NCBI GenBank assembly: GCA_016715325.1
Contig: JADKAL010000001.1
Coordinates: forward strand, 1 to 64,000
DNA: 64,000 nucleotides
DNA from: Methylococcaceae bacterium
GTDB taxonomy: Bacteria; Pseudomonadota; Gammaproteobacteria; Methylococcales; Methylomonadaceae
Direction: 5' to 3'
Every line of letters starts with the position of its first letter. Within the stretch, counting starts at the first letter, position 1. This document shows, one piece after another, positions 2,612 through 43,847 of this stretch. The notes under the pieces are model-generated. The model was given only the letters and a program-made list of their open reading frames with translations, did no database searches and was not told where the DNA came from. The position numbers and the translations under genes were made by a program.

Positions 2612-3871
2612 ATGGCTAAAGAATTACTGGTAGATGTCACCTTACGTAACGCTAAGCCAGACTCCAAGGATAAGCGACTCAATGATGGAGATGGATTATA
2701 TTTACTAGTCAAGCCAAACGGTTCTAAATGGTGGCGATTTGATTACACCATAGAGAGAAAGCGCAAAACATTATCATTGGGCGTTTACCCAGATACCGGA
2801 TTAAAACAAGCTAGGGAAAAGTTAGGTATTGCTAAGCAGCAGGTAGCAAATGGTGTTGACCCAAGTGATACCAGAAAGCAAATTAAAGTAGCTCAGATAT
2901 TAGCAGCTGAAAATGAAAGTCGTATTGATGCTGGATCAACCGTATTAGGGAGCTTTCAACACATTGCTGAAGAATGGGGGCAAAAGAAAATTGACGGCTG
3001 GGATGATAACAACAACCGCTCAAAACGAATGTTAGAGAGAAATATCTTCCCTTGGTTGGGATGTAAGCCCATAGTGGATATTAAGCCAATGGATATTTTA
3101 TCTTGCCTAAGACGGGTTGAAGCGCGCGGCACGATTGAGACAGCGCATAGAACACTGCAAATAACAGGGCAGGTTTTCAGATATGCGGTAGCTACTGGAC
3201 GGGTTGAACGAGATATAACGACAGATTTACGCGGTGCGTTACCACCCGCAAAAGGCAAAAACTTTGCATCAATGACAGACCCTAAGCAAGTTGCACCACT
3301 ATTGAGAGCAATAGACGACTATAACGGCTCTTTTGTCGTTAAATCAGCTCTTCAGCTTGCCCCGTTGGTTTTCGTTCGTCCCGGCGAACTTAGGGCGGCG
3401 GAATGGGGGCATATCGACCTAGAGGCTAAGGAATGGCGTTATCTGGTTACAAAAACCCAAACTCAACACATAGTGCCGCTATCAAAACAGGCTATTGAGA
3501 TATTAATTAACATAAAACCGTTAACCGGGAATGGGCGCTATATATTTCCGTCTGCTCGAACACCAAACGGCTCACGGGCAATGTCAGATGTGGCTTTATT
3601 GGCGGCACTTAGGCGTATGGGCTTTGATAAAACCGAAATGACTGTTCACGGGTTTAGAGCGGTAGCTCGAACCATCTTGGATGAGGTCTTAAATTTTCGC
3701 CCTGACTTTATCGAACACCAACTGGCACATGCTGTCCGTGATCCAAACGGACGCGCCTACAATCGTACCGCCCACTTACCAGAGCGCCATAAAATGATGC
3801 AGTCTTGGGCAGACTACCTTGATGGCTTGAAAGTTGGGGCCATAGTTATTCCGTTCCGTAAGATTAGTTAA
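2612..3871 (+). CDS. P4-type tyrosine-recombinase integrase
   Basis: 419 residues, full length for the family. The N-terminal ~90 residues are the DUF4102 arm-binding domain (NDGDGLYLLVKPNGSKWWRF), then a SAM-like core-binding domain, then the catalytic domain with RPGELRAAEW (first Arg), HGFRAVART (His-x-x-Arg), HQLAHAV and the tyrosine in GRAYNR. AAAGGGAG lies a few bases before the ATG. It would integrate and excise a genomic island at an RNA gene; the adjacent tmRNA 3' fragment fits. What follows is IS debris rather than a clear island, so the rest of the element may have decayed. Confidence 0.93.
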   Translation: MAKELLVDVTLRNAKPDSKDKRLNDGDGLYLLVKPNGSKWWRFDYTIERKRKTLSLGVYPDTGLKQAREKLGIAKQQVANGVDPSDTRKQIKVAQILAAENESRIDAGSTVLGSFQHIAEEWGQKKIDGWDDNNNRSKRMLERNIFPWLGCKPIVDIKPMDILSCLRRVEARGTIETAHRTLQITGQVFRYAVATGRVERDITTDLRGALPPAKGKNFASMTDPKQVAPLLRAIDDYNGSFVVKSALQLAPLVFVRPGELRAAEWGHIDLEAKEWRYLVTKTQTQHIVPLSKQAIEILINIKPLTGNGRYIFPSARTPNGSRAMSDVALLAALRRMGFDKTEMTVHGFRAVARTILDEVLNFRPDFIEHQLAHAVRDPNGRAYNRTAHLPERHKMMQSWADYLDGLKVGAIVIPFRKIS

Positions 3872-4635: not shown

Positions 4636-5944
4636 TTATTCAGGGCATAGTTTTTGGCAGACCGAATGAAACAACGCTTGACAAGGATAACTGCTGCTAA
4701 GCAATAGTTTCACCCGCCGGGTGTTACGGATCACCACCGCTCCGACCTTAAAGAGTTTCAGCCGAATTGTGCAGCAAGTAGCGTGTGCCAGTTCGGTATG
4801 GCGTAGGGCTATCCTGCGAATGGCCGCCATCAACGTATAGGCTAGCGTCGATAGCAACAAGCGAAATTGATTCGGCCACCACAGGCTGCAACTGGTTCGG
4901 TCGGCAAACAAGTCCAACTGTTGTTCTTTGATCCGGTTTTCCATCTCGCCCCGGGCGCAATACACTTTTTCGTAAAGTTGTTGCGGGTCACCCGTTAAAT
5001 TGGTCACCACATAGCGTGGATTGCTGCCTTGGCTCATGTGTTCGGCTTTGAGGATCACCCGGCGTTGGCGCTTCCAGCTCCCCGCCTTATAGTGCAGCTC
5101 GGTGAACAACCGTTGCTTGTGTTGCTGGGCTTCAAATTGGCTTTTGGCCTGATCTGTCCAGGGCTGGCTTAACTGGTTGAGACGCGGGTTTTTGGCTAAT
5201 CCGACAATATAATTGACCTCGTTGCGCTCGCACCAGCCCAGCATTTTATGCCGGCAAAAGCCGCTGTCCCCGCGCAAGGTAATCGAAACTTGAGGCCAAG
5301 CGCGGCGCAAGCGTTTAACCAACAGCGCCAGGATCGCCCAACTGTGTTTGGCACCGTCAATATTGCTGGGGCGTAAATAACTCACCAGGCATTGGTCGCC
5401 ACAAAGACATAGAGCGGCAGAAAACAATAGTGCCGGTAGTAACCATGAAAGAACCGGCCTTCCTGCTGCCCATGCACGGGATCGTCGGTGGCGTCAAAAT
5501 CGAGGATTAAGGATTCCGGGGGCGCGGCAAAAGAGTCGACAAACTGTTCCAGCAATTGCCCGTGGAGTCGCCACATGAGCATTCGATCCGCCTGTTGTTC
5601 AAATCGGCACAAGGTTGAACGACTACCCAAAACCTGATCCTTTTCGACTGCGGTCTGGAAGGCAATGTCGTTGCGCAAGGTATCGTGATCGTTTAGGTCT
5701 TCGTAACCGCACGCCAACCCATAAATCCGTTGCCGCAGCAAATCAACCACCTGATGCCGGATCTTGTCCGGATCCCTGGGGTCGGTGATCTGGGCAGCAA
5801 CCTGCTCGGTTAGTTTTAAACGCTGGTCAATGCTCCTCAACAGCAGCACACCGCCGTCACGATCGCTCCGCCGCCAAAATTGGCTTCAATTTTTCGACGT
5901 TTTAAGGCTGGAAATTCTATTTTGGTTGCGGTACAGTTTGTCAC
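4636..5944 (-). pseudogene. IS1380-family transposase, disrupted by two frameshifts
   Basis: Three consecutive minus-strand pieces join into one ~435-residue IS1380-type DDE transposase: a GTG start at 5944 (FPALKRRKIEANFGGG), a middle piece from DGGVLLLRSIDQRL to YCFLPLYVF with the first catalytic Asp in LILDFDATDDPVHG, and a last piece with LRGDSGFCRHKML (second Asp) and GEMENRIKEQQLDLF (Glu). Frame changes fall near 5868 and 5400. Clear terminal inverted repeats were not resolved. The element looks dead, although most catalytic residues are still encoded. Confidence 0.85.
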
Positions 5945-6947: not shown

Positions 6948-7472
6948 TTAATGGATATGCATCTCACGCGATTTAGTCGTATCGCCTCGTCTTAACGTAA
7001 AATCGTCCTGATCTCCGGACATTGCTGAGCCATCCAGATTAAGTTGAATTAACGTGGCTTCGTCTACAATGCGGTATTGTTTGCCGGGAATGTCGTCTTT
7101 CGGATCGAGTACAACGGTACGCGTATTGTCGTTCCAGGTAAATTTGCCTTTCTCATAAAATTCCCGTGAAGACGGTTTTGCCGGTTGCGTCACTAAAAGA
7201 TAATTATTATTCCGCTTTAACGATAATGTCATTTTAATACCACTGCAATCCTCTTCTTTACAAGGGAAATAGCCGTAATAAACACCTTTGAAATCCGGAC
7301 CTTTACTGGCTTCCATTTGATGCCCGGAATGTTCGCCGTGTTGTAACGCTTCACGCTGCCTGAGCAGTTTATCTTGCATATCTTTGTCGGAATTTGCCGA
7401 AGTGGGGTAAACGGTAATGAGTAGTGTGCCGAAAAGAAACGACGACAGAATATATTTAATGGAGAAAGGCAT
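6948..7472 (-). CDS. NlpE-like envelope protein with signal peptide
   Basis: 174 residues from the ATG at 7472, preferred over an upstream in-frame ATG at 7550 because the shorter form begins directly with a signal peptide (MPFSIKYILSSFLFGTLLIT) and has AGGAA before it. The mature part has GVYYGYFPCKEEDCSGIKM, the NlpE N-terminal motif with a CxxxxC variant of the usual CxxC. The tail ends MHIH. NlpE proteins sense envelope or copper stress. No lipobox Cys is obvious, so it may be periplasmic. A paralogue lies at 56134-56604. Confidence 0.75.
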   Translation of the reverse strand: MPFSIKYILSSFLFGTLLITVYPTSANSDKDMQDKLLRQREALQHGEHSGHQMEASKGPDFKGVYYGYFPCKEEDCSGIKMTLSLKRNNNYLLVTQPAKPSSREFYEKGKFTWNDNTRTVVLDPKDDIPGKQYRIVDEATLIQLNLDGSAMSGDQDDFTLRRGDTTKSREMHIH

Positions 7473-7783
7473 AACGTTCCTTGGTTTAACGTGTGTGGTT
7501 TTTATTTTAAAAAATATAGAAAAGAGTATCAGGATTATGTTTAAGGTCAACAGAAATAGCCTAGTAGTTTGAGATGAGCTTTAAAGCCGTAAACGGTCAT
7601 TAATTCACAAAGTAAATATTAGTTCGGAACGATAAATACTCTGCTACAGCACTAAAAGGCTTTACTCGACGAATCGTAGCATTTTGCCTCGTATATTGGT
7701 TTTCATGCGACGCCAAACTTCGCATTTCGGCTAACTGTGAGTGGTGGAGAGACCTATCAATGTCGTTAAGTTAATCCAACTTA

Positions 7784-8106: not shown

Positions 8107-8568
8107 ATGGCAGAAGAAATTTCAGATGTTTTTATTAGCTATGCTCATGCCGACGACGAGCCGCCTTTCGGTTTAACTTTCGGTTGGGTGACTATCTTTG
8201 TTGATGAGCTAAAAAAACGGCTTCGTAGTAAGTTAGGAGGAAATGGAGCGAGAATATGGATGGACTATCAATTAGCCGCGAATGATAAAGTAACTGATGC
8301 ATTATTGAATGCTATCAGTCAAAGCCGCACTATAGTGCTATTCATGTCGAATGGATACGCGAGATCCGAGTGGTGTCAAAAGGAGTTAGGGACTTTTCTC
8401 GATCACAACAGCTCCCACAAACACAAGGAAAGTGTGTTCATCGTTGAGCTTTACCCGACAAACCGCGAAAATTGGCACCCAAGGCTTCAAGAACTTACCC
8501 CGATTCAGTTCTGGCGGAAAGATTTAGATGAAGTACCGCAATTGGTTGGTTGGTATGCCGGTTCCTAA
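8107..8568 (+). CDS. TIR-domain protein, N-terminal part (frameshifted)
   Basis: 153 residues. DVFISYAHADDE is the TIR beta-A strand, IWMDYQLAANDKV and AISQSRTIVLFMSNGYARS follow, and WCQKELG supplies the conserved Glu used for NAD+ cleavage in TIR enzymes. The frame ends in junk (GWYAGS) just after a TTGG x3 tract at 8542-8553. Removing one TTGG restores PQLVG-MPVPKPDQDD and joins it to the next frame, giving a 512-residue protein. ATG at 8107 has CGGAGA upstream. Likely role: NADase effector of the defence locus (inferred). Confidence 0.85.
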   Translation: MAEEISDVFISYAHADDEPPFGLTFGWVTIFVDELKKRLRSKLGGNGARIWMDYQLAANDKVTDALLNAISQSRTIVLFMSNGYARSEWCQKELGTFLDHNSSHKHKESVFIVELYPTNRENWHPRLQELTPIQFWRKDLDEVPQLVGWYAGS

Positions 8569-9649
8569 GCCCGATCAGGACGATCTTTATTGGCGAAACC
8601 TTAATAAATTGTCCCACCTTATTGCTAATCATCTTGAAATTGTTAAGGAAACAGAATCTTCACCCAAAAAAGATCAGGTAACCCTTACTACGCAATCGAT
8701 AATAGTAACATCTATAAAATCTCAAACTTCATTAATTGTCTCATCTGATTCAAACTCTAAACCTACGCTATGGATTGCGGAACCTACTGAGGATTTGATT
8801 GATCAGTGGGAAGCATTGGCGGAAGCCGTAAAACAGGCAGGCTATAATTATCGGCCTTCCGGTCTTGAAACGTATCCGCGATCATCGGAAGCGGATTTTC
8901 TTTCTAAACTTCGATCCGACTTGGGAGGTGCTCACCTTTTTGTTCAACTCTTAGGACAAACTTCCGGTCGACGCTCTAAAGAAAGTAATATTTCTTTTAC
9001 AGCACTACAAAACGCTGCTGCTTTCGAATTTGCAAAGCAACAAATTAATTTTCTTCAATGGCGAAGCCGGGACATAAAGCTTGAAAATGTTGTTGACGAT
9101 ACTTACCGTCAGCTGCTTACCGGGGCTATCGCCTGCGGTTTTGAAGAGTTTCGCCAGCGGGTTTTGACTACGCTACAGAACTTGAATTCAGATTCGACCA
9201 CTAACAAATATCCCAACACTTCCGATGGGTCTCTAGCTATCTGTATCAGCGCAGATGTAGCGGACAGGGATTTAGGCCATCGGATCAGCGATATTTTAGT
9301 TGAATTAGGCGCAGATGCGCTGACTGCCCCGACACCTACTCAGGGTCAAGTATCATCGGTTTTCAATGCACAATTAGATGAGGTTATTTGCGGTAGCGAA
9401 GGAGTCATTATCGTCTACGGACAGTCCCATCCTCTTTGGGTTCAGGCACAGTATAATCAAGCACGAAAAGCGCTGCTGGCGCAAAAACGAAAAGGAATCT
9501 GGGGCGCACTGTTAAATGGGCCTCCTCATGATAAATCGGACGCCGGTGTCGCTAGTAAAAATCTGATGATGTTAGATTGCCGCGATGGACCAGAACGTCG
9601 GCATATCGAGCAATTCGTGAATGCCTTGCGGGAGACGAGCCATGCTTGA
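8528..9649 (+). CDS. Continuation of the TIR protein: two further Rossmann-like domains
   Basis: The frame is open from 8528, but the meaningful sequence starts around 8554 (MPVPKPDQDDLYWRNLNKL), which is how TIR domains in this class usually end. Then a linker and two alpha/beta domains: LWIAEPTEDLIDQWEALA to FEEFRQRVLTTLQ, and LAICISADVADRDLGHRISD to EQFVNALRETS. The last resembles a TIR-like fold lacking the WCxxE motif. The stop at 9647-9649 overlaps the ATG of the NTPase gene by 8 bases, implying coupled translation. Confidence 0.75.
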   Translation: MKYRNWLVGMPVPKPDQDDLYWRNLNKLSHLIANHLEIVKETESSPKKDQVTLTTQSIIVTSIKSQTSLIVSSDSNSKPTLWIAEPTEDLIDQWEALAEAVKQAGYNYRPSGLETYPRSSEADFLSKLRSDLGGAHLFVQLLGQTSGRRSKESNISFTALQNAAAFEFAKQQINFLQWRSRDIKLENVVDDTYRQLLTGAIACGFEEFRQRVLTTLQNLNSDSTTNKYPNTSDGSLAICISADVADRDLGHRISDILVELGADALTAPTPTQGQVSSVFNAQLDEVICGSEGVIIVYGQSHPLWVQAQYNQARKALLAQKRKGIWGALLNGPPHDKSDAGVASKNLMMLDCRDGPERRHIEQFVNALRETSHA

Positions 9650-10988
9650 GTTTCATGAAAATACACGTCCGTATCCAGGCCTTAGACCGTTCGAATCCTG
9701 GGAAGGCGAAATATTTTTTGGTCGTGAAGAACATACCAACCGACTGCTCGATATTCTTCAACAACAACGTTTCCTGTCGGTAATCGGGCCATCGGGTTCC
9801 GGTAAATCCAGCTTGGTTAGGGCCGGACTGCTTCCTGCACTGCCGTTAGGTTGTATGGGTACAGGTTCGGACTGGCGTATAGCCATAATGCGTCCCGGAA
9901 ATCGACCTATACAGCGTTTGGCGCAAACATTGCTTAGACGTTCGGTGTTGGGCATCGAACTCGTGGGGGAGGAGCGGATTCCCGAAGATGAGCTAACGCT
10001 CACATCCGATGTAGCGATGATCGAAGCGGAATTGCGCCGAGGACCACTAGGTCTCATCGACGTTGTGAAAGATGCCCGAAGCCGGCAAATAAAGAATGAT
10101 GCTTTTAATCTATTAGTGCTCGTAGACCAATTCGAGGAAATTTTTACTTATGCCGATGCAGGCGGGCGTCAGTCCGACGAATCGGAGGCTTTTGTCAATT
10201 TGTTGCTGGCATCACGCATACCGTTAGATGCCAAGATATATATTGTATTAACCATGCGTACCGATTTTCTGGGAAACTGCGTGCGCTTCCTGGAGTTACC
10301 TGACGCTATCAACCGTGCGCAATATCTCACCCCACGGCTCACCCGCGAACAAATCGAAAGAGCAATTACCGGTCCGGCACAAATTTTCGACGGCAGTATA
10401 GAGCCGACCTTGGTTGTAGAATTGATAAACGCAGTCAGCGACGATCCCGATCAATTACCAATATTGCAGCATGCTTTGGCGCGCATGTGGGAGATGGCGT
10501 TAGAGCGTAAAGACGAAAACACTGAAATTAACTGGGACGATTTTAGAAATGTAGGTGGAATCGCCAACGCACTTTCCGGACACGCAGATGAAATTCTGGC
10601 ATCGCTGAGTCCTAAGAATACGATTGAAGAACCGCTTTCGCCTATTCAGCAAACTGCGGAAGTATTGTTTCGGGCAATAACCGATCAGCGGAGTGTGGAG
10701 GCTGGCGGTCAATCCGTCCGTAGGCCTCAATCGTTGGAACGTATTGCGTATTGGTCCGGCCGGTCTTGGGAAGAATTCAAGCCGGTCATAGAAGCGTTTA
10801 CGCATGAAGGTGTTAATTTTTGCACATTAATGCCGCATTCGGCAAAGACACCGTCGTCGATATTTCGCATGAAGCACTCATTCGACAATGGAAACGATTA
10901 CAGGATTGGGTTTCTCAAGAAGCCAAGTTTGCTAGCGAATATAAGCGCTTACTTGAGCGTACGCAGGATTGGTACAGCGCCGAATTAG
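9642..10988 (+). CDS. nSTAND1 NTPase, N-terminal part (frameshifted)
   Basis: Start ATG 9642 (GGGAGA upstream) rather than the in-frame 9621. PYPGLRPFESWEGEIFFGR is the hallmark entry of novel STAND NTPase 1, followed by Walker A GPSGSGKSS, Walker B LLVLVDQFEE and winged-helix sequence down to FTHEGVNF near 10817. After that the frame reads unrelated residues to 10988. Adding one T to the T5 run at 10817-10821 continues into VVDISHEALIRQWKRL, the expected next motif. STAND NTPases act as ligand-triggered switches that oligomerise and turn on an effector. Confidence 0.88.
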   Translation: MLEFHENTRPYPGLRPFESWEGEIFFGREEHTNRLLDILQQQRFLSVIGPSGSGKSSLVRAGLLPALPLGCMGTGSDWRIAIMRPGNRPIQRLAQTLLRRSVLGIELVGEERIPEDELTLTSDVAMIEAELRRGPLGLIDVVKDARSRQIKNDAFNLLVLVDQFEEIFTYADAGGRQSDESEAFVNLLLASRIPLDAKIYIVLTMRTDFLGNCVRFLELPDAINRAQYLTPRLTREQIERAITGPAQIFDGSIEPTLVVELINAVSDDPDQLPILQHALARMWEMALERKDENTEINWDDFRNVGGIANALSGHADEILASLSPKNTIEEPLSPIQQTAEVLFRAITDQRSVEAGGQSVRRPQSLERIAYWSGRSWEEFKPVIEAFTHEGVNFCTLMPHSAKTPSSIFRMKHSFDNGNDYRIGFLKKPSLLANISAYLSVRRIGTAPN

Positions 10989-13900
10989 TGCAAAAAGGTT
11001 CCGGTTCACTTCTTACAGGAGCCGACCTTGCACGCGCGCTCGAATGGGAAGGCGGTTACTTAGCCGACAACACGAAAACAGATGCCATTTGGCGACCGAA
11101 TTCGCTTTGGGCCAACCGCTATAAAAAGGTTGGTGAGACTGCATCAGGCGAGCTGTTCGCGAATGTCATTAGATTTATTAATGAGAGTCACGAATTGATA
11201 CTTCGAGAAGAAAAGAGAGCGCGTACTTTCAGAAATATACTGATTGGGATCACATTATTTTCTTTTGCATGTATGGTGACCGCTGGCTGGTTTGCTCGAG
11301 AATCCAGTATTAGCGAAGGTATCGCCGAAGCGGCTCAAGTTAAAGCAGAAGGTGAACTGTTATGGATGCCCCTGGATTTTACAACTTCAATAATCAACAA
11401 CCAACAAGCTAATGGGTTATTAAAGCTTGCTAAGACCGACGATACAAGGAAACACGTTTTTTTCAAAAAACTTTTGACGAATGAATCGTTAGCAGAACAT
11501 TTTAGTCATAAACCCGATGCTATCATTCGCGCGTTAGTAGGCCTTGATTCTTACAAGAGAAACGAGTTACTCCAGATGCTAGAAGCTAAGTCGTCCGGAG
11601 TTGAAGTGAACGATATATTTCGAATTGCAAGGGTGCTTGCCCAATTGGAATTGGGCCGCGAGGTATCCATCAACGATATTCTGGATGCGACTGCAGATAA
11701 GGAAGGACAAAAAACCACAGGTGATGTACGTGAAATCCTCGCTAAAAAACTGTCTGAAAACATTGCAAAAGTGCCGGAGGCAAAGGTTAGTGAAGTATTT
11801 AAAATATTCATCGACGCAGAAATGGATGCCATTGCCTATGACAACTTCTCGACAGCGGAAAACATGTTAATCGAAAAAGCAAAAGGAGCACAGATTGAAT
11901 CGATTATGGATAACTACATAACCGCTATAGTGGAAGCGAAGACGCCGGATACTAAGAAAACCCTTGGATACGATCTGGCAAGGGTCGCTGAGAAAGTGTC
12001 GGATTCACAGTCAGCTAAATTTGTTAACAAGCTGTTAGCCAACATGAAGGATCCTGGTAGCAGTCAATATTTTAACCGCGGGCTGGCAGCACTGGCCGGG
12101 AAAGTGCAAAATGAGCAAGTCGAAGCGATTGTCGGCACGTTATTTACTGCGATTAACGAAACAAAAGATCCCGAACAGCGCTGGTACCTTGGTGGGGTAT
12201 TGGCGAATATTATCGATAAAATACAGAAAGAACAAGCATCTAACTTCATCGATAAGTTTTTAGCCAATATTAAAGATCCTGACAGCAGTCAATATTTTTA
12301 CGACGGGCTGGCAGCGTTGGCTGGTAAAGTGCCGGATACACAAACCGAAGCAATTATAGCCGCGTTTTATAGCGCTATAAGCGATACAAAAGCTCCTGAG
12401 CAACGCCGGAATCTTGGTAGACTGCTTGGGACTGTCGTTGAGAAAGTATCGGATGCGCAGGCATCTAAATTCACCGGCAAGCTGTTAGCCGAAATGAAAG
12501 ACCCCGACCGTGGTCAATTTTTTTACGACGGTCTGGCAGCACTGGCCGGGAAAGTGCCGGACGCACAAACCGATGCAATGATCGGCACGTTTTTCACCGC
12601 AATAAACGACACAAAAGATCCTGATAAACGTCGATACCTTGGGGAACTGTTGGCGGGGATTATCGGTAAAGTAAAGGCTGAACAGGCATCTAAATTCATC
12701 GACAAGTTTTTAGCCAACATTAAAGATCCTGAGCGCAGTCAATATTTTTATGGGGGATTGGAGGCGCTGGCTGGGAATGTGCCAAGTACGCAAACCGAAG
12801 CTATTCTCGGCAAGCTTTTTAGTGCTATAAACAATGATACAAAAGATCCCGAACAGCGTCGGTATCTTGGCGGCGCGTTGGCGAAGTTTTTTGGTAAATT
12901 ACAGGATGAACAGGCATCAAAATTAGTCGACACGTTATTAGCCAACATGAAAGATCCGAAGAACCAAGATAATAAACAATACTTTTATGACGTGCTGGCA
13001 GCACTGGCTGTGAATTCGCAGGATGCGCAGTCCGAAAAAATTATCGGCGAGCTTTTCGACGCCATAAAAAATGTGAAAGAGTATTATCAACGTGAGAATC
13101 TTGGTAAGGCGCTGACGATTGTCGTCGATAAAGTTCCGGTTGAAAAGATACCTAAATTAGTCGACGCGTTATTAGTCAACATAAACGATCCGAAAAACCA
13201 AGATATTAAGCAATACTTTTATGGCGGTCTTGCAGCACTGGCTGAGAAAGTGCAGGATTCGCAGTCAGATATGATTCTCGAGGGGCTTATCGATGCTATG
13301 AAAGATAACAATGATTATAACCAGCGTGAGAGTCTTGGAAAGGCGTTGGCGGCGGTTGTCGATAAAGTGCCGATTGCACAGCTATCTAAATTAGTCGATA
13401 CGTTAATAGCCGACATGAAAGACCCGAAAAACCAAGATAAAAAGCAATTCTTTTACGCGAGTTTGGTAGCGGCGGCTAAATCGTCACCGGAACAAGCTAC
13501 GATCATAGCGGATAACCTTATCGAAACTATCAAAGACGCCAGCGTAAATCAACCATTTGAAGCCTTCGGCGATGGTCTGAAGAAGGTTGTTCAGAAAATT
13601 CCGGAACGTCAAGCAGGAGAAATGGCTAACCACCGACTCATAGATTCAATGAAAAACTTGATAGAACAAAGCTCAGTGTCAGAACTGACAAAGAAATTGA
13701 AGTCGAAAAATTTGTCGGAAGACGAAGAAAAAATGATAAGGAAACAATTATTAGCTATCGCAAATGGTAATTCTCCTTCTAATCAACAGCTTGAAGCCCT
13801 AAGTCAGGGTTTATTGGGACTAGTACCAAAGTTAACTGAATCAGAAGCCGATTCGCTCGCACAAAGTCTGGTTGAAACAATCCAGAAAAACACCGATTCA

Positions 13901-14122
13901 AATCAGTTAGAAATGCTTTCTCGCAGTATTGCCGCTGTATCGGCCCGGTTAAAACCTGACAATGCTGGCAAAATCTTATTCCAATTACTGAAAAATCCGT
14001 TAACGCCACGTGATATTTTGGCAGAAGCGATTCGCGGTAAATTTCCGGGCGATGCTCCTAAGGAAGATCAAGGGTACTGGAGTCTTATAGAATGGGGTAC
14101 TAAAAAACAATTAATTCTCTAG
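10820..14122 (+). CDS. nSTAND1 NTPase, C-terminal part with long repeat sensor
   Basis: Up to 1100 residues if read from TTG 10820, but really the downstream part of the preceding gene (together ~1,490 residues). Begins with the end of the STAND module (DTVVDISHEALIRQW, GADLARALEWE), then one membrane-like helix near residues 135-155 (ILIGITLFSFACMVTAGWF). The rest is alpha-helical and built largely of ~75-residue repeats. The C-terminal array probably recognises the trigger, as in Avs and other STAND proteins (inference). A ~300-residue non-repeat helical region follows the repeats. Confidence 0.82.
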   Translation: MHINAAFGKDTVVDISHEALIRQWKRLQDWVSQEAKFASEYKRLLERTQDWYSAELVQKGSGSLLTGADLARALEWEGGYLADNTKTDAIWRPNSLWANRYKKVGETASGELFANVIRFINESHELILREEKRARTFRNILIGITLFSFACMVTAGWFARESSISEGIAEAAQVKAEGELLWMPLDFTTSIINNQQANGLLKLAKTDDTRKHVFFKKLLTNESLAEHFSHKPDAIIRALVGLDSYKRNELLQMLEAKSSGVEVNDIFRIARVLAQLELGREVSINDILDATADKEGQKTTGDVREILAKKLSENIAKVPEAKVSEVFKIFIDAEMDAIAYDNFSTAENMLIEKAKGAQIESIMDNYITAIVEAKTPDTKKTLGYDLARVAEKVSDSQSAKFVNKLLANMKDPGSSQYFNRGLAALAGKVQNEQVEAIVGTLFTAINETKDPEQRWYLGGVLANIIDKIQKEQASNFIDKFLANIKDPDSSQYFYDGLAALAGKVPDTQTEAIIAAFYSAISDTKAPEQRRNLGRLLGTVVEKVSDAQASKFTGKLLAEMKDPDRGQFFYDGLAALAGKVPDAQTDAMIGTFFTAINDTKDPDKRRYLGELLAGIIGKVKAEQASKFIDKFLANIKDPERSQYFYGGLEALAGNVPSTQTEAILGKLFSAINNDTKDPEQRRYLGGALAKFFGKLQDEQASKLVDTLLANMKDPKNQDNKQYFYDVLAALAVNSQDAQSEKIIGELFDAIKNVKEYYQRENLGKALTIVVDKVPVEKIPKLVDALLVNINDPKNQDIKQYFYGGLAALAEKVQDSQSDMILEGLIDAMKDNNDYNQRESLGKALAAVVDKVPIAQLSKLVDTLIADMKDPKNQDKKQFFYASLVAAAKSSPEQATIIADNLIETIKDASVNQPFEAFGDGLKKVVQKIPERQAGEMANHRLIDSMKNLIEQSSVSELTKKLKSKNLSEDEEKMIRKQLLAIANGNSPSNQQLEALSQGLLGLVPKLTESEADSLAQSLVETIQKNTDSNQLEMLSRSIAAVSARLKPDNAGKILFQLLKNPLTPRDILAEAIRGKFPGDAPKEDQGYWSLIEWGTKKQLIL
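12030..13490 (+). repeat. Tandem ~225-237 bp coding repeats (HEAT-like, ~75-79 residues)
   Basis: The motif LANMKDP..QYFY.GLAALAGKV recurs with starts near 12037, 12262, 12486, 12711, 12939, 13173 and 13410, so the period is 225 bp and grows to 234-237 bp where KNQD is inserted. Each unit holds two helical halves, the second around AI.DTKDPEQRRYLG..LA. Neighbouring units are similar at DNA level, which allows unit gain or loss by recombination. Confidence 0.85.
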
Positions 14123-14986: not shown

Positions 14987-17383
14987 ATGACCGTGACTGA
15001 TAATTTCAATATAACCTCAGATATCAACCCACTCACCGATGATGAGCTAGAAAAACTGAACGCTTATTGGTGCGCCTGTAATTATCTGGCTGCGGGCATG
15101 ATTTACCTCAGAGAAAATCCGTTATTAAAAGAGCCGCTTAAGCCCGAGCATATCAAGAATCGTTTACTGGGACATTGGGGTGCAAGTCCGGGTTTGAGTT
15201 TCGTCTACATCCATATAAATCGACTCATTAATAAATATGGACTAAATGCCATGTTTATGGCGGGTCCCGGACACGGCGCGCCGGGTGTTTTAGCGCCCGT
15301 TTATTTGGAAGGGACCTACTCGGAAATTTATCCGAACAAAGGCGAAGATGAAGATGGCTTGCAAAACTTCTTCAAAGAATTTTCTTTTCCCGGCGGTATT
15401 GGCAGCCATTGCACGCCGGAAACGCCCGGCTCTATCCATGAAGGCGGCGAACTAGGGTACAGTATTTCTCACGCTTACGGTGCAGCCTTCGATAACCCGG
15501 ATTTAATCGTAACGGTTGTTGTGGGAGACGGCGAATCGGAAACCGGGCCGTTAGCGACATCCTGGCATTCTAATAAGTTTCTCAACCCGATACGCGATGG
15601 AGCGGTTTTACCCATATTGCATCTCAACGGTTATAAAATTAACAATCCAACGGTGCTATCGCGAATTTCTCATGAAGAATTGGAACAGTTATTTCATGGT
15701 TACGGGTATACACCGTACTTTGTGGAAGGCAGCGATCCTGCGACGATGCATCAACGCATGGCCGATGTGTTGGAACAATGCGTGCTAAACATCAGAGAAA
15801 TTCAACGAGAAGTCCGAACGAGCGGTATCCCGCTTCGTCCGCGTTGGCCGATGATAATCTTACGCAGTCCCAAAGGCTGGAGCGGTCCCAAAGAAGTCGA
15901 TGGACATAAAGTCGAAGGGTTCTGGCGTTCGCATCAAGTGCCGCTTTCTTCCGTAAAAGAAAACCCGGCTCATCTGGCCATATTGGAAACGTGGTTGCGA
16001 AGTTATAAACCGGAAGAATTGTTCGATGCTACCGGTAAGCTGATACCCGAACTAAAAGCGCTAGCCCCTAAAGGTAATTTTCGGATGAGCGCCAATCAAC
16101 ATGCAAACGGAGGCTTGTTACGCAAAGCCTTACGAATGCCTGATTTTAACGATTATGCTTTAGCGTTAGAAAGTCAGGGAAAAACTGTCGCTGAAAATAC
16201 CCGTCCTTTGGGGAAATTTCTGCGCGATATTATGCGCGAAAACATGAGCAACTTTCGCGTGTTCGGTCCCGATGAAAACAGCTCCAATAAGCTGGACGAT
16301 GTTTACGCAGTCAGCAAGAAAACCTGGTTGGCCGACTATTTACCGGAAGATGCCGATGGCGGAGAATTATCGCCGGATGGACGGGTGATGGAAATCTTGT
16401 CCGAACATACGTTGGAAGGCTGGCTGGAAGGCTATTTGCTGACAGGTCGCCACGGTTTCTTTTCAACCTATGAAGCGTTTGTGCATGTCATCGACTCGAT
16501 GTTCAATCAACATGCGAAATGGTTGGCCATGTCCAGGGCTGTGCCTTGGCGTGCGCCAGTTTCATCGCTTAATTTGTTAATTACTTCAACGGTTTGGCGG
16601 CAAGATCATAATGGATTTACCCATCAAGATCCCGGATTTTTAGACATCGTCCTCAATAAAAGCCCGTTAGTCACCCGAATTTATCTGCCGCCCGATGTCA
16701 ACTGTCTACTTTCGGTTGCCAACCATTGTTTAAACAGCACCGATTATATAAATGTTATTGTCTGCGACAAACAAAAACACTTGCAGTATCTGGATATGGC
16801 AGCGGCCATCAAGCATTGCACAAAGGGTATCGGAATCTGGGAGTGGGCAAGCAATGATCAAGATCATGAACCGGACCTCGTGATGGCGAGCGCAGGCGAC
16901 ATCCCGACAAAAGAGGCGTTAGCCGCAACGGTATTGTTACGAGAACACTTTCCGCAGCTTAGAATCCGTTTTATCAATGTCGTCGATCTCTATAAATTAG
17001 TGCCGAACAGCGAACATCCTCACGGACTAGCCGATCGCGATTTCGATAGTCTATTTACATTGGACAAGCCGATCATTTTCAATTTTCACGGTTATCCTTG
17101 GTTAATTCACAGATTAACCTATCGCCGCCATAATCATTGCAATTTGCATGTGCGCGGCTATAAGGAAAAGGGCAGCATCAATACTCCTTTGGAATTGGCT
17201 ATTCAGAATGAAGTCGATCGCTTCAGTTTAGCGATTGACGCCATCAATCGCATTCCTTCGTTGCTGGTTTCAGGCGCTCATGTGAAGCAGAAACTGCGCG
17301 ATCGCCAGATAGAATGCCGCAATTACGCTTATGAACACGGGATCGATAGGCCGGAAGAAGATCATTGGCAATGGCCTTATTAA
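14987..17383 (+). CDS. xfp: Phosphoketolase (xylulose-5-P / fructose-6-P)
   Basis: 798 residues, typical for the family. [27 protein letters not shown] and [27 protein letters not shown] match the XFP N-domain, and [14 protein letters not shown] is the thiamine diphosphate/Mg site. The enzyme cleaves xylulose-5-phosphate (or fructose-6-phosphate) with phosphate to acetyl-phosphate and an aldose phosphate. AAAGGA precedes the ATG. It heads a three-gene run with a phosphatase and acetate kinase, so acetyl-phosphate can yield acetate and ATP or feed acetyl-CoA, a carbon-saving route known in type I methanotrophs. Confidence 0.97.
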
Positions 17384-18080: not shown

Positions 18081-19277
18081 ATGTTTAATTACCTTTTGGT
18101 AATTAATGCCGGATCGTCCAGCATTAAATTCACTCTTTTCCGGATAGAATCCTCAGGTCGGCTCGTTGAGGAATTGAAGGGCCAAGTCGATGGTATAGGC
18201 AATTTCCCACAGTTAAAAGTCATACACTCGGATGGTGGACTGTTAGTCGATAAACGCATAGATACGTCGGTAGCACCCGATCATAAAAACTGCTTAAATG
18301 AAATCTGTTCATGGTTATTGCAGTATATAGGGAAAGGAAAATTACAGGCGATCGGGCATCGCGTCGTTCATGGCGGACTGGATTACATCACTCCAGTTTT
18401 AATTAATCAAAAGATATTAAGCGATTTAGAAAACCTTATTCCCTTAGCGCCACTTCATCAACCGCATAATTTGCTGCCAATTCGCACGTTTGAGGAAATC
18501 ATCCCCGGCGTACCCCAGATCGTGTGTTTCGACACGGCATTTCACCGGACACAATCCGAAACGGCGCAATCTTTCGGACTTCCTAAACGATTTTTTAACG
18601 AAGGCATACGGCGATACGGTTTTCATGGTATATCGTATGAATTTATTGCCTCGGAATTGCCTAGATTAGGATTAGAAATCCACGGTACACGTATTATTGT
18701 CGCTCACCTAGGCAGCGGAGCGAGTCTATGCGCAATCCAAAACGGCGTCAGTATTGCGACTACAATGGGGTTTTCACCGCTCGACGGACTTGTAATGGGA
18801 ACGCGGTGCGGCAGTCTCGATCCGGGCGTTATGCTCTATTTAATGGATCGCTATAAAATGAACGTTAGAGAGTTGGAACATCTTCTCTATTATGAGTCCG
18901 GTTTGCTCGGAATATCGGGTGTTTCCAACGATATGAGGACGTTGCTTGCGAGCGAAAGCCCCTTAGCGGCAGAAGCGATCAAATTATTCGTTTATCGTAT
19001 CGGGCGGGAAATCGGTTCTTTAGCTGCAGCCTTAGGCGGTTTAGATGCTTTGATATTTACCGGTGGAATTGGCGAGAATTCTGCCGAAATACGGGATCTC
19101 GTCTGCAAACAAGTGAGTTGGCTAGGTTTGGAACTGGATCGAGACGCCAATCGAGCAGCCGCTGAACGTCTTTCAACGATTCAGTCTAAAATTTCCGCCT
19201 GGGTCGTTAAAACCGATGAAAATTTAATGATTGCAAAACATACTCAAAACTATTTGGGAATGTCTCATCAGTTGTAA
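18081..19277 (+). CDS. ackA: Acetate kinase
   Basis: 398 residues. VINAGSSSIKFTLF opens the ASKHA fold, GHRVVHGG the substrate site, FDTAFHRT the catalytic Asp region, RRYGFHGISYE and VAHLGSGASLCAI complete the set, and FTGGIGENS is the adenosine motif. Interconverts acetyl-phosphate + ADP with acetate + ATP in the cytosol. 31 bp after the phosphatase gene, so very likely co-transcribed with xfp. Full length and intact. Confidence 0.97.
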   Translation: MFNYLLVINAGSSSIKFTLFRIESSGRLVEELKGQVDGIGNFPQLKVIHSDGGLLVDKRIDTSVAPDHKNCLNEICSWLLQYIGKGKLQAIGHRVVHGGLDYITPVLINQKILSDLENLIPLAPLHQPHNLLPIRTFEEIIPGVPQIVCFDTAFHRTQSETAQSFGLPKRFFNEGIRRYGFHGISYEFIASELPRLGLEIHGTRIIVAHLGSGASLCAIQNGVSIATTMGFSPLDGLVMGTRCGSLDPGVMLYLMDRYKMNVRELEHLLYYESGLLGISGVSNDMRTLLASESPLAAEAIKLFVYRIGREIGSLAAALGGLDALIFTGGIGENSAEIRDLVCKQVSWLGLELDRDANRAAAERLSTIQSKISAWVVKTDENLMIAKHTQNYLGMSHQL

Positions 19278-29027: not shown

Positions 29028-30898
29028 GTGTGCCCAGCATGGGCTAAAACTTGTTATCTGAAAGGAGATAACCGGAAGTAGTAACAACAACCGTAGCGAA
29101 ACGCAAGGGGGAAGCCGTGAGGCGAGCCTGAAAGCAGCGCGTAGCAAAAGCACGACCGCAGGGACACGAACAAGCAGTGAGGCCTGGTGTGGGCGATAAG
29201 TGTGCTAGGGAACACGAAATCCAACCGTTACCGAAAGACGCATCAGGTAGAGCTTGGCGGCACGGGCAGAAAGTTTTAGCGCCTTACCTGGGGAGATCTC
29301 CAGTATGAGAGTATTGGAGAAGTCAGCAGAGGCTATAGTAGCGAGGAAATTCCTGTAATGGGGATGGAGCGAAGGGCTGAAGAACCAAAAGACAGGCCAT
29401 TTTGAACATCTCCGTGGTAGGGCGGACAGTATTCCGAAATGGGCGGACGCTGCAACTGCGGCAGCTATCCGGCCAGCGGCTGTGTGGGGTTGGTGGATTC
29501 CAACCGGAAGCACGGAAGCGGGATGCAAGCCTGACACGGGCGGAGGAGAAAATAGAAGGTGCTGAATGAAAATCTGATGGGAAGCATACTCTCAGGCGAT
29601 AACCTGAGGTCAGCTTACGAGCGAGTAAAAGCCAACAAGGGGGCGCCTGGCGTAGACGGCATGAGCGTAGACGATTTCGCCGGCCATGCCCAACGGCATT
29701 GGTCGACAGTAGCGGAGAAGCTCAAAACCGGCACCTACCAACCTGGGGCTATTCGGGGTGTCAGCATCCCGAAACCGCAGGGCGGTGAGCGGCGCTTAGG
29801 CATACCCAATGTCCAAGACCGAGTGATCCAACAAGCGGTTGCACAAGTATTAAGCCCGATATTCGAGCCGGAATTTAGCGAACACAGCTACGGATACCGG
29901 CCTGGGCGCAGTGCCCATGATGCCGTTGGGGTGGCGCGAGACTATGTGCTATCCGGCAAGACCTGGGTGGTTGACATAGACATCAGCGCCTTCTTCGATG
30001 AAGTCAACCATGACATCCTACTGGCGAAAATCAGCAAGAAGGTGTCGGATAAGCAGGCATTGCGGCTCATTGGGGATTACTTGAGAGCGCCAATACGCAG
30101 TGAAGGCCGACTTGAAAAGCGTCGCCAAGGCACGCCACAAGGCGGGCTTTTGAGTCCGCTGCTGGCCAATATTTATCTGGATGCTCTGGATAAGGAACTG
30201 GAACAGCGGGGGTTAAGCTTCTGTCGCTATGCGGACGACATTGTCATTTTTGTGGGAAGCGAACGTAGCGGTGAACGAATGCTGTCCAGCCTAACGGACT
30301 GGATCACTAAACACCTAAAGCTGCGGGTCAACCTCGCCAAAAGCGGTGTTGGGCGACCCTGGAACGGCAAGTTCCTGGGTTTTCGTATTAATAGCGATGG
30401 ACGTATTGCACCGGCTGAGGCTAGTTTGGACAGGCTCAAGGAGCAAGTGCGAAGCCAATGGAATGCCCAAGAAAGTATACCGTTGGAAGACCGCATCAAG
30501 CGCTGGCAAGACTATATCCGAGGTTGGTGGAATTACTTCAGCGTCTGCCAACAACGGCGAGGCATAAGGCTATTGGAATGCTGGATACGTCGCCACATGC
30601 GCAAATACTTCTGGCAACGCTGGCACAACCGGCAGGGCAGATTGAACGCGCTAATACGCTTGAAAGCCAAACCGTATCACTTAAAGCAAGCGAGCGGCTC
30701 AGTAGGGACATGGCGTTTAGCGCGGAGCCCTATGCTGCAAACCGTGCTGAACAACACACGGCTTCGGCAATGGGGTTTATTTGTACCATCAGATTTTGCG
30801 ACGCTTTGAGTCGCTGGGTTCAACCGCCGGATGCGGAAAACCGCATGTCCGGTGGTGTGGGAGGGGTGACGGGCGCAATCCCGTCTCCTAGACCCGAT
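29028..30898 (+). mobile_element. Group II intron
   Basis: The 5' end GTGTGCCCAGCATGGGC fits a group II 5' splice sequence. The 3' part has a domain V hairpin at about 30824-30856 (CCGCCGGATGCGG ... ATGTCCGGTGGTG) and a domain VI stem ending in CCTAGACCCGAT near 30898. A reverse-transcriptase/maturase gene lies inside. Length about 1.87 kb. Removing it joins CTA (29025-29027) to C (30899), recreating CTAC, the complement of the REP foot GTAG. The exact ends are inferred to within a few bases. Confidence 0.82.
29559..30809 (+). CDS. ltrA: Group II intron reverse transcriptase/maturase
   Basis: 416 residues, GTG start 29559 after GGAGGAG (ATG at 29577 also possible). RT domain: GAPGVDGMSVDDF, RRLGIPNVQDRVIQQAV, GYRPGRSAHDAV, DIDISAFFDEVNHDIL, GTPQGGLLSPLLANI and the catalytic FCRYADDIVIF. 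Maturase (X) domain includes WQDYIRGWWNYF. No HNH endonuclease at the C-terminus. It splices its own intron RNA and drives retrohoming. The gene is intact, so the intron could be active. Confidence 0.95.
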   Translation: MLNENLMGSILSGDNLRSAYERVKANKGAPGVDGMSVDDFAGHAQRHWSTVAEKLKTGTYQPGAIRGVSIPKPQGGERRLGIPNVQDRVIQQAVAQVLSPIFEPEFSEHSYGYRPGRSAHDAVGVARDYVLSGKTWVVDIDISAFFDEVNHDILLAKISKKVSDKQALRLIGDYLRAPIRSEGRLEKRRQGTPQGGLLSPLLANIYLDALDKELEQRGLSFCRYADDIVIFVGSERSGERMLSSLTDWITKHLKLRVNLAKSGVGRPWNGKFLGFRINSDGRIAPAEASLDRLKEQVRSQWNAQESIPLEDRIKRWQDYIRGWWNYFSVCQQRRGIRLLECWIRRHMRKYFWQRWHNRQGRLNALIRLKAKPYHLKQASGSVGTWRLARSPMLQTVLNNTRLRQWGLFVPSDFATL

Positions 30899-30937
30899 CG
30901 TTATTGCACTATACTCCTAATAAATTAATGGCTTGGG

Positions 30938-31531
30938 GTGGTTGGTTTGGCTGATTATCGGCGTTTCTATGTGCCGGGCGGGTCTTATTTTTTCACGGTG
31001 GTGACCGAACGGCGGGCGGCAATCCTGGCGAACGATATGGCGCGGGACTGTTTGCGGGCGGCCATCCGGCATTGTCAACACGGCTTGCCGTTCCATATCG
31101 ATGCCTTGGTGATCTTGCCTGACCATATCCACGCCTTATGGTCTTTGCCGCCCGGCGATTGCGATTATTCCATACGCTGGGGCATCATCAAAAAACATTT
31201 TACCCAACATTGGCTGGCCTTGGGCGGGGTTGAGCAACCGGTATCTGAGGTAAAGCGGCAATACCGCTGGCGCGGCGTATGGCAAAGGCGCTTGCTTCGG
31301 CAAGCTCAGCACAGGCTTGGGAACATACGCTGCGCGACGAACGGGATTATCAAAACCATTTCGATTACCTGCATTTTAATCCGGTTAAACACGGTTTGGT
31401 GGATATGGTGTTCGATTGGCCTTATTCGTCGTTCCATTATTGGGTAAAGCAGTGTGTATATCCTGACGATTGGAGTTGCGGAGTGGAAGTTGACAAGTTA
31501 GCGGGCAATGCCGAATCTTATGGTGAATATC
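30938..31531 (+). pseudogene. REP-associated tyrosine transposase (RAYT), frameshifted
   Basis: GTG start 30938. YRRFYVPGGSYFFTVVTERR opens the Y1/IS200-like fold, ILPDHIHALWSLP is the HUH metal motif. Near 31285 an inserted ~25-base repeat-like stretch (CTTCGGCAAGCTCAGCACAG) breaks the frame; the next frame then resumes with WEHTLRDERDYQNHFDYLHFNPVKHG, containing the catalytic Tyr region, to NAESYGE. The second frame stays open to 31977 only by running through a REP. RAYTs cut and mobilise REP palindromes carrying GTAG feet, which abound here. Confidence 0.85.
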
Positions 31532-31556
31532 GTAGGGTACGCACCGCGTACCCTAC
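31532..31556. repeat. REP palindrome at the RAYT 3' end
   Basis: Near-perfect palindrome: GTAGGGTACGC, a short ACC loop, GCGTACCCTAC. It begins with GTAG and ends with CTAC and directly follows the coding end of the RAYT, as in RAYT/REP pairs. Confidence 0.75.
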
Positions 31557-31639
31557 CAAAAAACCGTGGGGAAATTGTCCTTCTCAAACGTCTTATAGCA
31601 GTAAGACATTTCCCTTTTTCATTCCAAGTTTGATCAGCC

Positions 31640-31798
31640 ATGAAGTTACGTCCTGTTTGGGTATTAATACATCGCTATACCGGTTTGGCGATGACGGTGT
31701 TTTTAATCATTGTGGGCTTGACCGGCAGTTTATTGGCGTTTTATGCGGAGTTGGAACATGGTGTGAATCCGCAGTTTCAGGTTGTTTCAAGCACGTAG
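31640..31798 (+). pseudogene. PepSY-type membrane protein, 5' fragment
   Basis: ATG 31640 starts 52 residues: KLRPVWVLIHRYTGLAMTVF then LIIVGLTGSLLAFYAELEH, the first helix of PepSY-associated TM proteins (iron-uptake reductase-like). Coding sense ends abruptly where the inverted repeat begins (31790) and the TAG belongs to the repeat. The rest of the gene, normally 350-500 residues, is missing. Confidence 0.7.
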
Positions 31799-31924
31799 GG
31801 CGGGTCGAGACCCGCCTTACAGTTACCCACCGTACGAAGTTACATCATAAGGCGGGTTACGCCGCGCGGGGAGGTCTGTGGTTGCTTGGGGTCAGAGGGG
31901 TTGCGCGGCTAACACCGCCCTACG
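31790..31924 (+). repeat. Left arm of a ~135-bp inverted repeat
   Basis: Begins AGCACGTAGGGCGGGTCGAG and ends CACCGCCCTACGTGC. Inverted copy at 32582-32717 with only a handful of mismatches. Internally made of REP-like palindromes (GTAGGGCGGGTCGAGACCCG...). Confidence 0.85.
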
Positions 31925-31942
31925 TGCTACGTCCCTCGGGGG

Positions 31943-32503
31943 CTACACAGGTTGAAAAACAATACCCGTTACGTTGATTTTTTCTAGTAAACTTTTTACC
32001 TGACCATCTACGATTAAGGCTATCTTCCATTCGTTGATTCGAAACATATTGTGACTCCTTGCTTTTTCCTGATCAATAAATAATCTCGTAATCATTCGAA
32101 ACTGTCCTACTTTATCTGACCTGCCATCTCCTAGCGCCCATTTTGTGAACTCCGATTTTTCTTCATTAACACATTCTACTGTATCTAATACATTCAGAAT
32201 CTCGTATAACGTATTGCTCGCTTCTATCTCAATAGAAATACGCTGAATCGAGTCTCCCACCAGTTCTTGAAGTGCTTCATTCAAATGTTTAGGTGTTACA
32301 ATCAAGTCGAAATCACAAAAGTTAAAGTCGACAGGTTTTCCTTCGCGCCGTAACGGTAGCTTCAATGGGAGTTCACCATCATATCTAGTGCCAGAGGTAA
32401 AAATACGTGGATCAACCTCTCTCCCATTAGAATTTACTGGAGCTTTCAAATACAACCTATCTGTCGCATTCGGATCAACTAATACTCTGTAAAATTGAGT
32501 CAT
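31943..32503 (-). CDS. Imm11-like immunity protein
   Basis: 186 residues. The pattern FDLIVTPKHLNEALQELV, YEILNVLDTVECVNEEKSEFT, ARSHNMFRINEWKIALIVDG and the end NVTGIVFQPV fits the Imm11 (DUF1629-like) family, small cytosolic proteins that neutralise polymorphic toxins. No toxin gene is adjacent. The gene is AT-rich and lies wholly between the two arms of an inverted repeat, pointing to transfer as an orphan cassette. Family call is from pattern memory only. Confidence 0.55.
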   Translation of the reverse strand: MTQFYRVLVDPNATDRLYLKAPVNSNGREVDPRIFTSGTRYDGELPLKLPLRREGKPVDFNFCDFDLIVTPKHLNEALQELVGDSIQRISIEIEASNTLYEILNVLDTVECVNEEKSEFTKWALGDGRSDKVGQFRMITRLFIDQEKARSHNMFRINEWKIALIVDGQVKSLLEKINVTGIVFQPV

Positions 32504-42683: not shown

Positions 42684-43847
42684 ATGCAATCGCCGGGACA
42701 ATTCGATAATAAGGGCGCTATCGGCTGGATGGCCGCACATCCGATTGCCGCAACTTTAATGATGATTATTTTCCTTGTCGGCGGGCTATTATTCATCGGC
42801 GTTATCAAGCAAGAAGTTTTTCCCGAATTCGAAACCGATGCGGTCAGTATTACGGTTGTTTATCCCGGCGCAAGTCCTGAAGAAATCGAGAATGGGGTTT
42901 TACTGGCAGTTGAAGACGCAATTAGCGGGGTTGACGGTATTGATGAAGTGAATGCCACCGCAAAAGAAGGTCAAGGAAAAGTCCTAGTTGAAGCCATGCG
43001 CGGCACGGATATTCAGCAACTGACGCAAGATATACAAAGGGAAGTTAGTCGTATTACCACCTTTCCCGTCGATGCGGAAGAACCCAAAATCGCCCCCGTG
43101 AGTATGCACCGGCAAGTGCTTTCACTCGTGTTGTACGGGCAAACTAAACATCATGACTTACACGAATTAGCCGAACAATTCCGCGAACAGCTTTTGCAAG
43201 ACGCTGCGATAACGCAAGTCGAACTCGAAGGTATCAATCCGCTCGAAATCAGTATCGAAGTCAGTCAAGATCATTTACGGCGTTATCAATTATCGCTGTC
43301 GGATATTGCGCAACGGATACAAAACGCCAGTATCGATCTTCCGGGCGGCAGCATCAAAACCGATGGCGGCGAAATCTTGGTCCGTATGAAAGAACGGAAG
43401 GATTATGGGCGGGAGTTTGCCGACATTCCGGTTATCACGACCGCTAATGGCAGTGTTTTACGGTTGGGCGACATCGCCAGCATTAAAGACGGTTATGAAG
43501 ACAGCGATTATTCCGCTAACTTTAACGGACAACCGGCGGTCATGATGCAAGTCTACAGCGTAGGGGAGCAAACGCCGATAGAAGTTTCCGATGCCGTCAA
43601 AAAGCATCTGGACCGAATTAAGGCTGTATTACCTGAAGGGATTAACGCCGAAATCCGTTACGACTCGTCGGATCAATATGCGCAACGAATCGATTTACTG
43701 GTCGACGACAGTATTACCGGCTTAATCCTGGTCTTTATTTCCTTGGCCGTTTTTTTAGAATTACGCCTCGCCTTTTGGGTCATGATGGGTATTCCGACAG
43801 CTTTTTGGGAACCTTTCTGCTACTGCCCGCGCTGGATGTGTCGTTGA
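42684..43847 (+). CDS. RND efflux pump, N-terminal part (frameshifted)
   Basis: 387 residues: first membrane helix (AATLMMIIFLVGGLLFIGVI), porter domain (FPEFETDAVSITVVYPGASP) and helix 2 (GLILVFISLAVFLELRLAF). The frame goes off at 43802-43806, where a T5 run reads GCTTTTTGGG. One extra T gives IPTAFLGTFLLLPALDVSLN and joins the next frame into a ~1,043-residue pump, the usual length. HAE1-like family; substrate unknown. Confidence 0.9.
   Translation: MQSPGQFDNKGAIGWMAAHPIAATLMMIIFLVGGLLFIGVIKQEVFPEFETDAVSITVVYPGASPEEIENGVLLAVEDAISGVDGIDEVNATAKEGQGKVLVEAMRGTDIQQLTQDIQREVSRITTFPVDAEEPKIAPVSMHRQVLSLVLYGQTKHHDLHELAEQFREQLLQDAAITQVELEGINPLEISIEVSQDHLRRYQLSLSDIAQRIQNASIDLPGGSIKTDGGEILVRMKERKDYGREFADIPVITTANGSVLRLGDIASIKDGYEDSDYSANFNGQPAVMMQVYSVGEQTPIEVSDAVKKHLDRIKAVLPEGINAEIRYDSSDQYAQRIDLLVDDSITGLILVFISLAVFLELRLAFWVMMGIPTAFWEPFCYCPRWMCR

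Follow-up and report, generated by a model that had tools for sequence, protein, structure and literature searches.

A recurrent gene pair of a TIR protein and an nSTAND1 protein with a predicted transmembrane helix in a Methylococcaceae bacterium

The first 64,000 nucleotides (nt) of contig JADKAL010000001.1 (assembly GCA_016715325.1) from a Methylococcaceae bacterium, here called the window, hold at positions 8107-14122 of the + strand two overlapping genes that an initial annotation had read as a candidate defence operon. The product of gene 1 is a TIR protein that also has two Rossmann-like domains, and that of gene 2 is an nSTAND1 NTPase followed by one hydrophobic helix and seven HEAT-like repeats. 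Our results show that TIR and nSTAND1 genes form a conserved, recurrent pair, which is apparently unnamed. We favour, with modest confidence, the view that this pair is a two-gene, STAND-triggered and membrane-anchored TIR NADase effector unit.

Conservation of the pair

Four open reading frames (ORFs), two per gene, fill the region in the ORF list of the window (Table 1). With piece 2 of the TIR gene as query, 53 proteins were retrieved besides the window's own, and with piece 2 of the STAND gene 21, of which 12 (P0056-P0067) are solenoid-type relatives; for five of these 12, the contig has the same length as that of a TIR homologue. Four loci were obtained from a genome scan, and whole-genome searches in three groups gave matches in 16/311 (E 1e-20), 10/148 and 4/369 genomes (both E 1e-30), these counts including genomes already known and, for the first of them, a short match in G073 that lies outside the loci read.

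Within the loci read, 45 ORF rows matched and 39 of them have the middle or third domain of the TIR protein; an nSTAND1 gene lies downstream on the same strand in 37 of these 39. Counted by locus, using domain coordinates, 36 of the 37 loci with a middle or third domain have nSTAND1 directly downstream. The pairing of homologues, by which the initial annotation had proposed to check its model, is thereby observed. The single unpaired locus is a decayed fragment in Candidatus Burkholderia pumila (L003). Six TIR-only rows were left out of the 37-locus count (two of L003, and L039, L042, L046 and L063); L039 and L063 stop at a contig end, and L046 has nSTAND1 at 551 nt. As a control, the other TIR genes of genome G001 gave an nSTAND1 match in the fetched region in 0/7 cases, or more fairly in 0/5, as L068 and L072 reach a contig end.

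Two of these loci deserve a separate mention. The relative in Candidatus Burkholderia pumila (L003:1472-2723) is interrupted by in-frame stops, and L042:986-3703 encodes a 906-residue protein with a TIR match, next to a frame that reads as MoxR-type ATPase-like, perhaps as part of another conflict system.

One intact TIR and two domains lacking the catalytic Glu

The first domain of the TIR protein had been recognised by its WCxxE motif, rightly so: it reads WCQKE in the window, it matches PF13676 (60.2 bits, E 3.6e-16, cut-off 28) and PF01582 (37.7 bits, E 2.3e-9, cut-off 21.3), and its catalytic Glu is kept in 81/83 rows. The two added Rossmann-like domains proposed with it are also present; one of them is now identified as DUF4062-like and the other as a TIR fold, and the catalytic Glu is missing from nearly every member of each. 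For the middle domain, the profile search suggested earlier gave a match between the family profile and DUF4062 (PF13271) at E 1.9e-9, the window sequence itself scoring 18.6 bits, below the cut-off of 24.7. For the third domain, residues 366-501 of a homologue model match TIR folds, in a model comparison that barely tests the middle domain.

At the position where DUF4062 NADases have Glu, the middle domain has Gln in 80/82 rows and Glu in 0/82. The third domain has Gln, Lys, Arg or Asn at the catalytic position, with Lys or Arg in 11/82 and Glu in 1/82 (counted per domain; a few genes appear both as a P and as an L row). Homology between the middle and third domains was detected with hhalign (score 29.5, best of 20 shuffles 14.5), and none was detected between the first TIR and either of them (15.8 and 10.7, best of 20 shuffles 16.1 and 17.8). 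As Glu is kept in the first TIR and replaced in the other two domains, the protein is predicted to combine one live TIR with two pseudo-TIRs, one DUF4062-like and one of TIR fold. No NCBIfam or PADLOC model covers it. In L032, L034, L035, L036 and L037, the TIR protein encoded beside an nSTAND1 gene is shorter (345-368 residues) and has the third domain only.

The STAND protein and its repeat sensor

The nSTAND1 assignment is confirmed by PF20703 (261.6 bits, E 2.4e-77, cut-off 27.1), the end of this profile being found in the second frame (E 1.2e-7). In the translation, we take GPSGSGKSS to be the Walker A motif and LLVLVDQFEE a Walker B-like one. No PADLOC match covers the protein.

The initial annotation had counted at least seven repeats of about 75 residues, and a DP..Q[YF]F motif indeed recurs seven times, at spacings of 75, 75, 75, 76, 78 and 78 residues. 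The periodicity is also visible in the DNA, with six units in the longest-running family. The model of STAND piece 2 is all helix (mean pLDDT 70.9, pTM 0.45), and its top Foldseek rows are karyopherins, SF3B1-type chains and CAND1, with whole-chain TM-scores of only 0.2-0.35, which suggests that the sensor of the window is a HEAT-type solenoid. The solenoid also gave weak Pfam matches, among them Methyltransf_33, which we regard as chance matches on repeats.

Compared pairwise (36 pairs), nine solenoid-type homologues share on average 72.6% identity in the NTPase, 53.7% in the helical part that follows it and 27.3% in the solenoid. By these alignments the NTPase is conserved and the solenoid appears as the fast-diverging part, as expected of a sensor. 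The domain after the NTPase also varies in kind: WD40 was found in 12 of the 18 partners scanned elsewhere (of 36 partners), and other partners have FGE-sulfatase (L038), RDD (L043) or an added TIR before the helix (L048). The L004 partner is TPR-like, by eye only, and no further domain match was obtained in L061, nor in the part after the helix of L044, the only part scanned there. The L048 protein (L048:4031-7117) thus joins in one chain nSTAND1 and, ahead of the predicted helix, a second TIR.

Helix and predicted topology

The single membrane-like helix of the initial annotation also stands, as the sole stretch of the window protein with a mean KD19 hydropathy of at least 1.8. A 19-residue stretch with a mean hydropathy of at least 1.6, at most 320 residues after the NTPase, is present in 40 of the 45 testable partners, and in 30 of these 40 it lies 91-129 residues from the NTPase end (set at 430 by hand for the P proteins). 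Lys and Arg residues flanking the helix are more numerous before than after it in 37/40, with means of 6.2 and 2.6. Cys is scarcer after the helix than in the NTPase in 29/35 (0.34% vs 0.80%), the rows being related and the p-value rough, and the window sensor has 0 Cys in 920 residues. From the conserved helix, the charge bias and the few Cys after the helix, the sensor is predicted to be periplasmic and the NTPase and TIR to be inside, unlike in Avs.

Table 1. Positions of the gene pair and its features in the window
Feature	Position	Strand	Basis
TIR gene piece 1: TIR domain, WCQKE, catalytic Glu kept	8107..8568	+	PF13676 E 3.6e-16; 75% identity to P0002 residues 8-153
TIR gene piece 2, other frame: middle and third domains	8528..9649	+	64% identity to P0002 residues 151-504; 53 relatives
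TIR gene frame-break zone, short TTGG tandem tract	8528..8568	+	ORF overlap
Middle domain, DUF4062-like, Gln at catalytic Glu position	8765..9190	+	own profile 211 bits; PF13271 18.6 bits, cut-off 24.7
Third domain: TIR-like fold with conserved W, Glu substituted in almost all members	9230..9646	+	own profile 206 bits
8-nt overlap of STAND gene start (ATG 9642) with TIR gene stop codon (9647-9649)	9642..9649	+	sequence
STAND gene piece 1, nSTAND1 NTPase	9642..10988	+	PF20703 261.6 bits; 78% identity to P0056 residues 1-396
STAND gene frame-break zone, starts beside T run	10820..10988	+	ORF overlap
STAND gene piece 2, other frame: NTPase module end, helix, HEAT-like solenoid	10820..14122	+	36% identity to P0056 residues 394-1425; all-helical model
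Predicted transmembrane helix, Lys/Arg-rich on preceding side	11237..11293	+	hydropathy scan
Sensor repeat array, period 225-234 nt (75-78 residues)	11984..13455	+	DNA repeat and motif analysis

Comparison with known systems

The repeats of Avs/AVAST proteins bind terminase or portal. Like them, the pair has a STAND NTPase core and variable C-terminal repeats as the likely sensor; it differs in having its effector on a separate gene and a predicted transmembrane helix between NTPase and repeats. An N-terminal effector fusion of the Avs type is not seen in P0056, P0064 and P0067, where the nSTAND1 match starts at residue 10. In Thoeris, a ThsA-type effector (SIR2, macro or transmembrane) stands beside a TIR gene. 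The pair shares with it a TIR protein in a short operon and weak ThsB matches; however, the partner is nSTAND1 in 36/37 loci, and no ThsA-like gene was seen adjoining the pair in the window, where the upstream neighbour is NlpE-like. The best named relative of the TIR domain is FxsC (NCBIfam NF040588), with 35.4-49.3 bits over about 100 residues in four TIR homologues, scores that are far below the cut-off of 130, and here again the partner is nSTAND1.

DUF4062 proteins have newly been reported as NADases (Swarozyc; preprint PMC13174449), and DUF4062 stands beside a STAND-type ATPase and WD40 in human NWD1, NWD2 and TEP1 (PMC13174449). The pair shares with Swarozyc proteins a DUF4062-like domain and a predicted TIR-type NAD+ chemistry, but in the pair this domain carries Gln in place of the catalytic Glu and follows a live TIR, and the sensor is on the other protein. 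The antiviral STAND proteins described in PMC10907252 carry their effector on the same chain, fused N-terminally. Predicted relatives are found in PMC8195603, PMC7159879 and PMC10907252. In the first of these, a TIR gene is predicted to adjoin a STAND-FGS gene, the two being connected by an adaptor that both share. The bDLD3-linked TIR and STAND pairs described there are also neighbouring genes with a predicted counter-invader role, and nSTAND1 received its name in that work (PMC8195603), whereas here no adaptor precedes nSTAND1 and the TIR protein has two pseudo-TIR domains instead. STAND antigen sensors diversified by diversity-generating retroelements likewise join nSTAND1 or NACHT to diversifying sensors, those of the pair being mostly HEAT or WD40, and one STAND target with a periplasmic sensor domain is predicted in the same work (PMC10907252). 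No description of the arrangement as a whole was found in the literature searched (mainly open-licence papers), in agreement with the initial annotation, which knew it under no name.

Proposed mechanism

The sequences show that the genes are paired, which domains they encode, where the catalytic Glu is retained or lost, that the sensor diverges and is swapped, and that the helix is conserved. These features suggest a model in which the physical complex, the NADase activity, the topology, the trigger and the outcome are putative. The nSTAND1 protein could be a membrane-anchored switch, with its NTPase inside, one transmembrane helix and a repeat sensor facing the periplasm, this sensor being replaceable (HEAT-like here, often WD40 elsewhere). 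Binding of a ligand to the repeats would lead the NTPases to assemble at the membrane, and the TIR protein, encoded by its own gene, would be drawn to this assembly; its single intact TIR would then cleave NAD+, the cell dying or stalling. TIR activation has been reported to require oligomerisation (PMC13174449). The DUF4062-like and third, TIR-fold domains could serve as a built-in scaffold, complete the TIR active site as its other half or bind a nucleotide.

A more specific and tentative idea, which we regard as possible rather than probable, is that of an envelope-facing NLR-like receptor. The periplasmic sensor would report an attack outside the cytoplasm, the two Glu-less domains would provide a ready-made half-assembly, and a trigger from outside would be converted into NAD+ destruction inside.

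Several observations weigh against the proposed unit. A hydrophobic stretch is present in 21/54 control genes, so that its presence alone is not rare and the argument rests on the place of the helix and on the charge bias, and 5/45 partners have no such stretch. The topology of L058 is ambiguous: after its helix, a peptidoglycan-binding-like match is accompanied by a carrier-protein-like one, and the latter would suit the cytoplasm. The first TIR lacks its Glu in L033 and L004, the domain arrangement of the TIR protein is uncertain in the homologue model (pTM 0.48), and the control for TIR pairing is small, with downstream sequence for only five of its seven genes. Finally, known defence genes, next to which the pairs had been expected, are not enriched around them: at E 1e-15, PADLOC models matched 3 of 83 genes beside ten pairs (one with DpdF and helicase models, one with mad3 and one with HEAT-ARM), while the 121 control genes gave 15 families, each of these in a single gene. 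The 83 genes, out of 155 called by a longest-ORF rule, come from ten of twenty loci, and the control genes from nine 18-kb stretches of three genomes. As the neighbours are not enriched for defence models, phage defence is a putative role of the pair. The phage-triggered suicide system first proposed is supported by the conserved pair and the kept catalytic Glu, and finds no support in this neighbourhood.

Alternative explanations

The pair could be a cytoplasmic, Avs-like defence unit, in which the repeats would sense a phage protein inside, the helix would be a buried linker or a tether leaving the repeats inside, and the TIR would be a detached effector. A STAND NTPase with fast-diverging C-terminal repeats is what this would predict, STAND proteins sensing phage proteins through such repeats have been described (PMC10907252), and the carrier-protein-like match of L058 would suit it. 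We nevertheless consider it rather unlikely, as the loci read encode the effector apart from the STAND protein, the conserved helix has a positive-inside bias and Cys is fewer after the helix in 29/35 (related rows). The initial annotation's view of the repeats as a sensor agrees with their fast divergence, and Avs-type sensing of phage proteins in the cytoplasm fits poorly with a helix that predicts a periplasmic sensor. Alternatively, the TIR could make a nucleotide signal rather than drain NAD+, the Glu-less domains binding this signal or its products and a second effector lying elsewhere or being a domain of the pair. Signal-making TIR enzymes are known (PMC13174449), and the Gln and Trp of the pseudo-domains are nearly invariant (80/82 and 81/82), as for a retained pocket. 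This appears distinctly improbable, because no third gene was seen to recur among neighbours, for which no systematic clustering was made, and Lys or Arg replaces Glu in 11/82 third domains.

The pair might also serve outside immunity, in envelope-stress or programmed-death signalling of complex bacteria. The lack of enrichment for defence models is consistent with this, as are the NlpE-like gene just upstream in the window and the absence of relatives from phage and plasmid records and viral contigs, where none was found (17 viral stretches fitted a search pattern and none encoded a relative). Patchy presence and a fast-diverging sensor are, however, more usual for conflict systems, and both are seen here (16/311, 10/148 and 4/369 genomes), so that a role outside immunity seems unlikely to us.

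Genomic context and frame breaks

Among the scanned neighbours, an integrase gene (2612-3871), a split transposase gene and the NlpE-like gene (6948-7550) lie upstream of the pair, and histidine phosphatase and acetate kinase genes downstream. The integrase, 4 kb upstream of the pair, is a tyrosine integrase with an Arm DNA-binding domain. The protein of 14987-17383 was read as a phosphoketolase, and the acetate kinase gene is at 18081. This presumed phosphoketolase is up to 88% identical to proteins from the order to which the genome of locus L002 belongs, in which 149 of 201 genomes gave a match, so that the host is probably a methanotroph within or close to this order. Further away, 29559-31977 holds a group II intron-type reverse transcriptase gene, followed by a weak IS200-like match just below the cut-off. 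MoxR ATPase and vWA genes, as in MoxR-vWA ternary conflict systems, were not found among these neighbours, which were not scanned for them as a set.

The two genes overlap by 8 nt, as the initial annotation had indicated, with the correction that each contains one frame break (Table 1). The ORF of the first TIR piece ends past the break of its gene, and the ORF holding the first STAND piece spans 9621-10988, ATG 9642 being the probable start, at a position matching the start in homologues. Intact homologues of both genes exist, and the broken pieces abut on them: the TIR pieces correspond to residues 8-153 then 151-504 of P0002, and the STAND pieces to 1-396 then 394-1425 of P0056. The breaks are either assembly base errors or true loss. 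It is quite possible, at somewhat less than even chances, that the two genes of the window were left behind by a mobile element and are decaying as pseudogenes, since each gene has one break and the integrase gene lies nearby, with a transposase gene (DDE_Tnp_1_4; 4636-5849, - strand) likewise in two frames. Against such decay, the 6 kb contain no further stop, and the G+C content of the pair is that of the window (0.450 and 0.447). Moreover, an RND-type (ACR_tran) transporter gene (42684-45814) is split in the same manner, 42684-43844 matching profile positions 7-368 and 43775-45811 positions 368-1020 of 1021, with short base runs at the junction, which suggests assembly base errors. We lean slightly towards this explanation.

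Implications

If the proposed topology and division of labour are true, NLR-like immunity would extend to the envelope, with a detached effector, a live TIR accompanied by two TIR-fold copies that consistently lack Glu, and sensing beyond the inner membrane. The pair would put a DUF4062-like domain in a probably non-catalytic role, and could provide a natural test of pseudo-TIR function.
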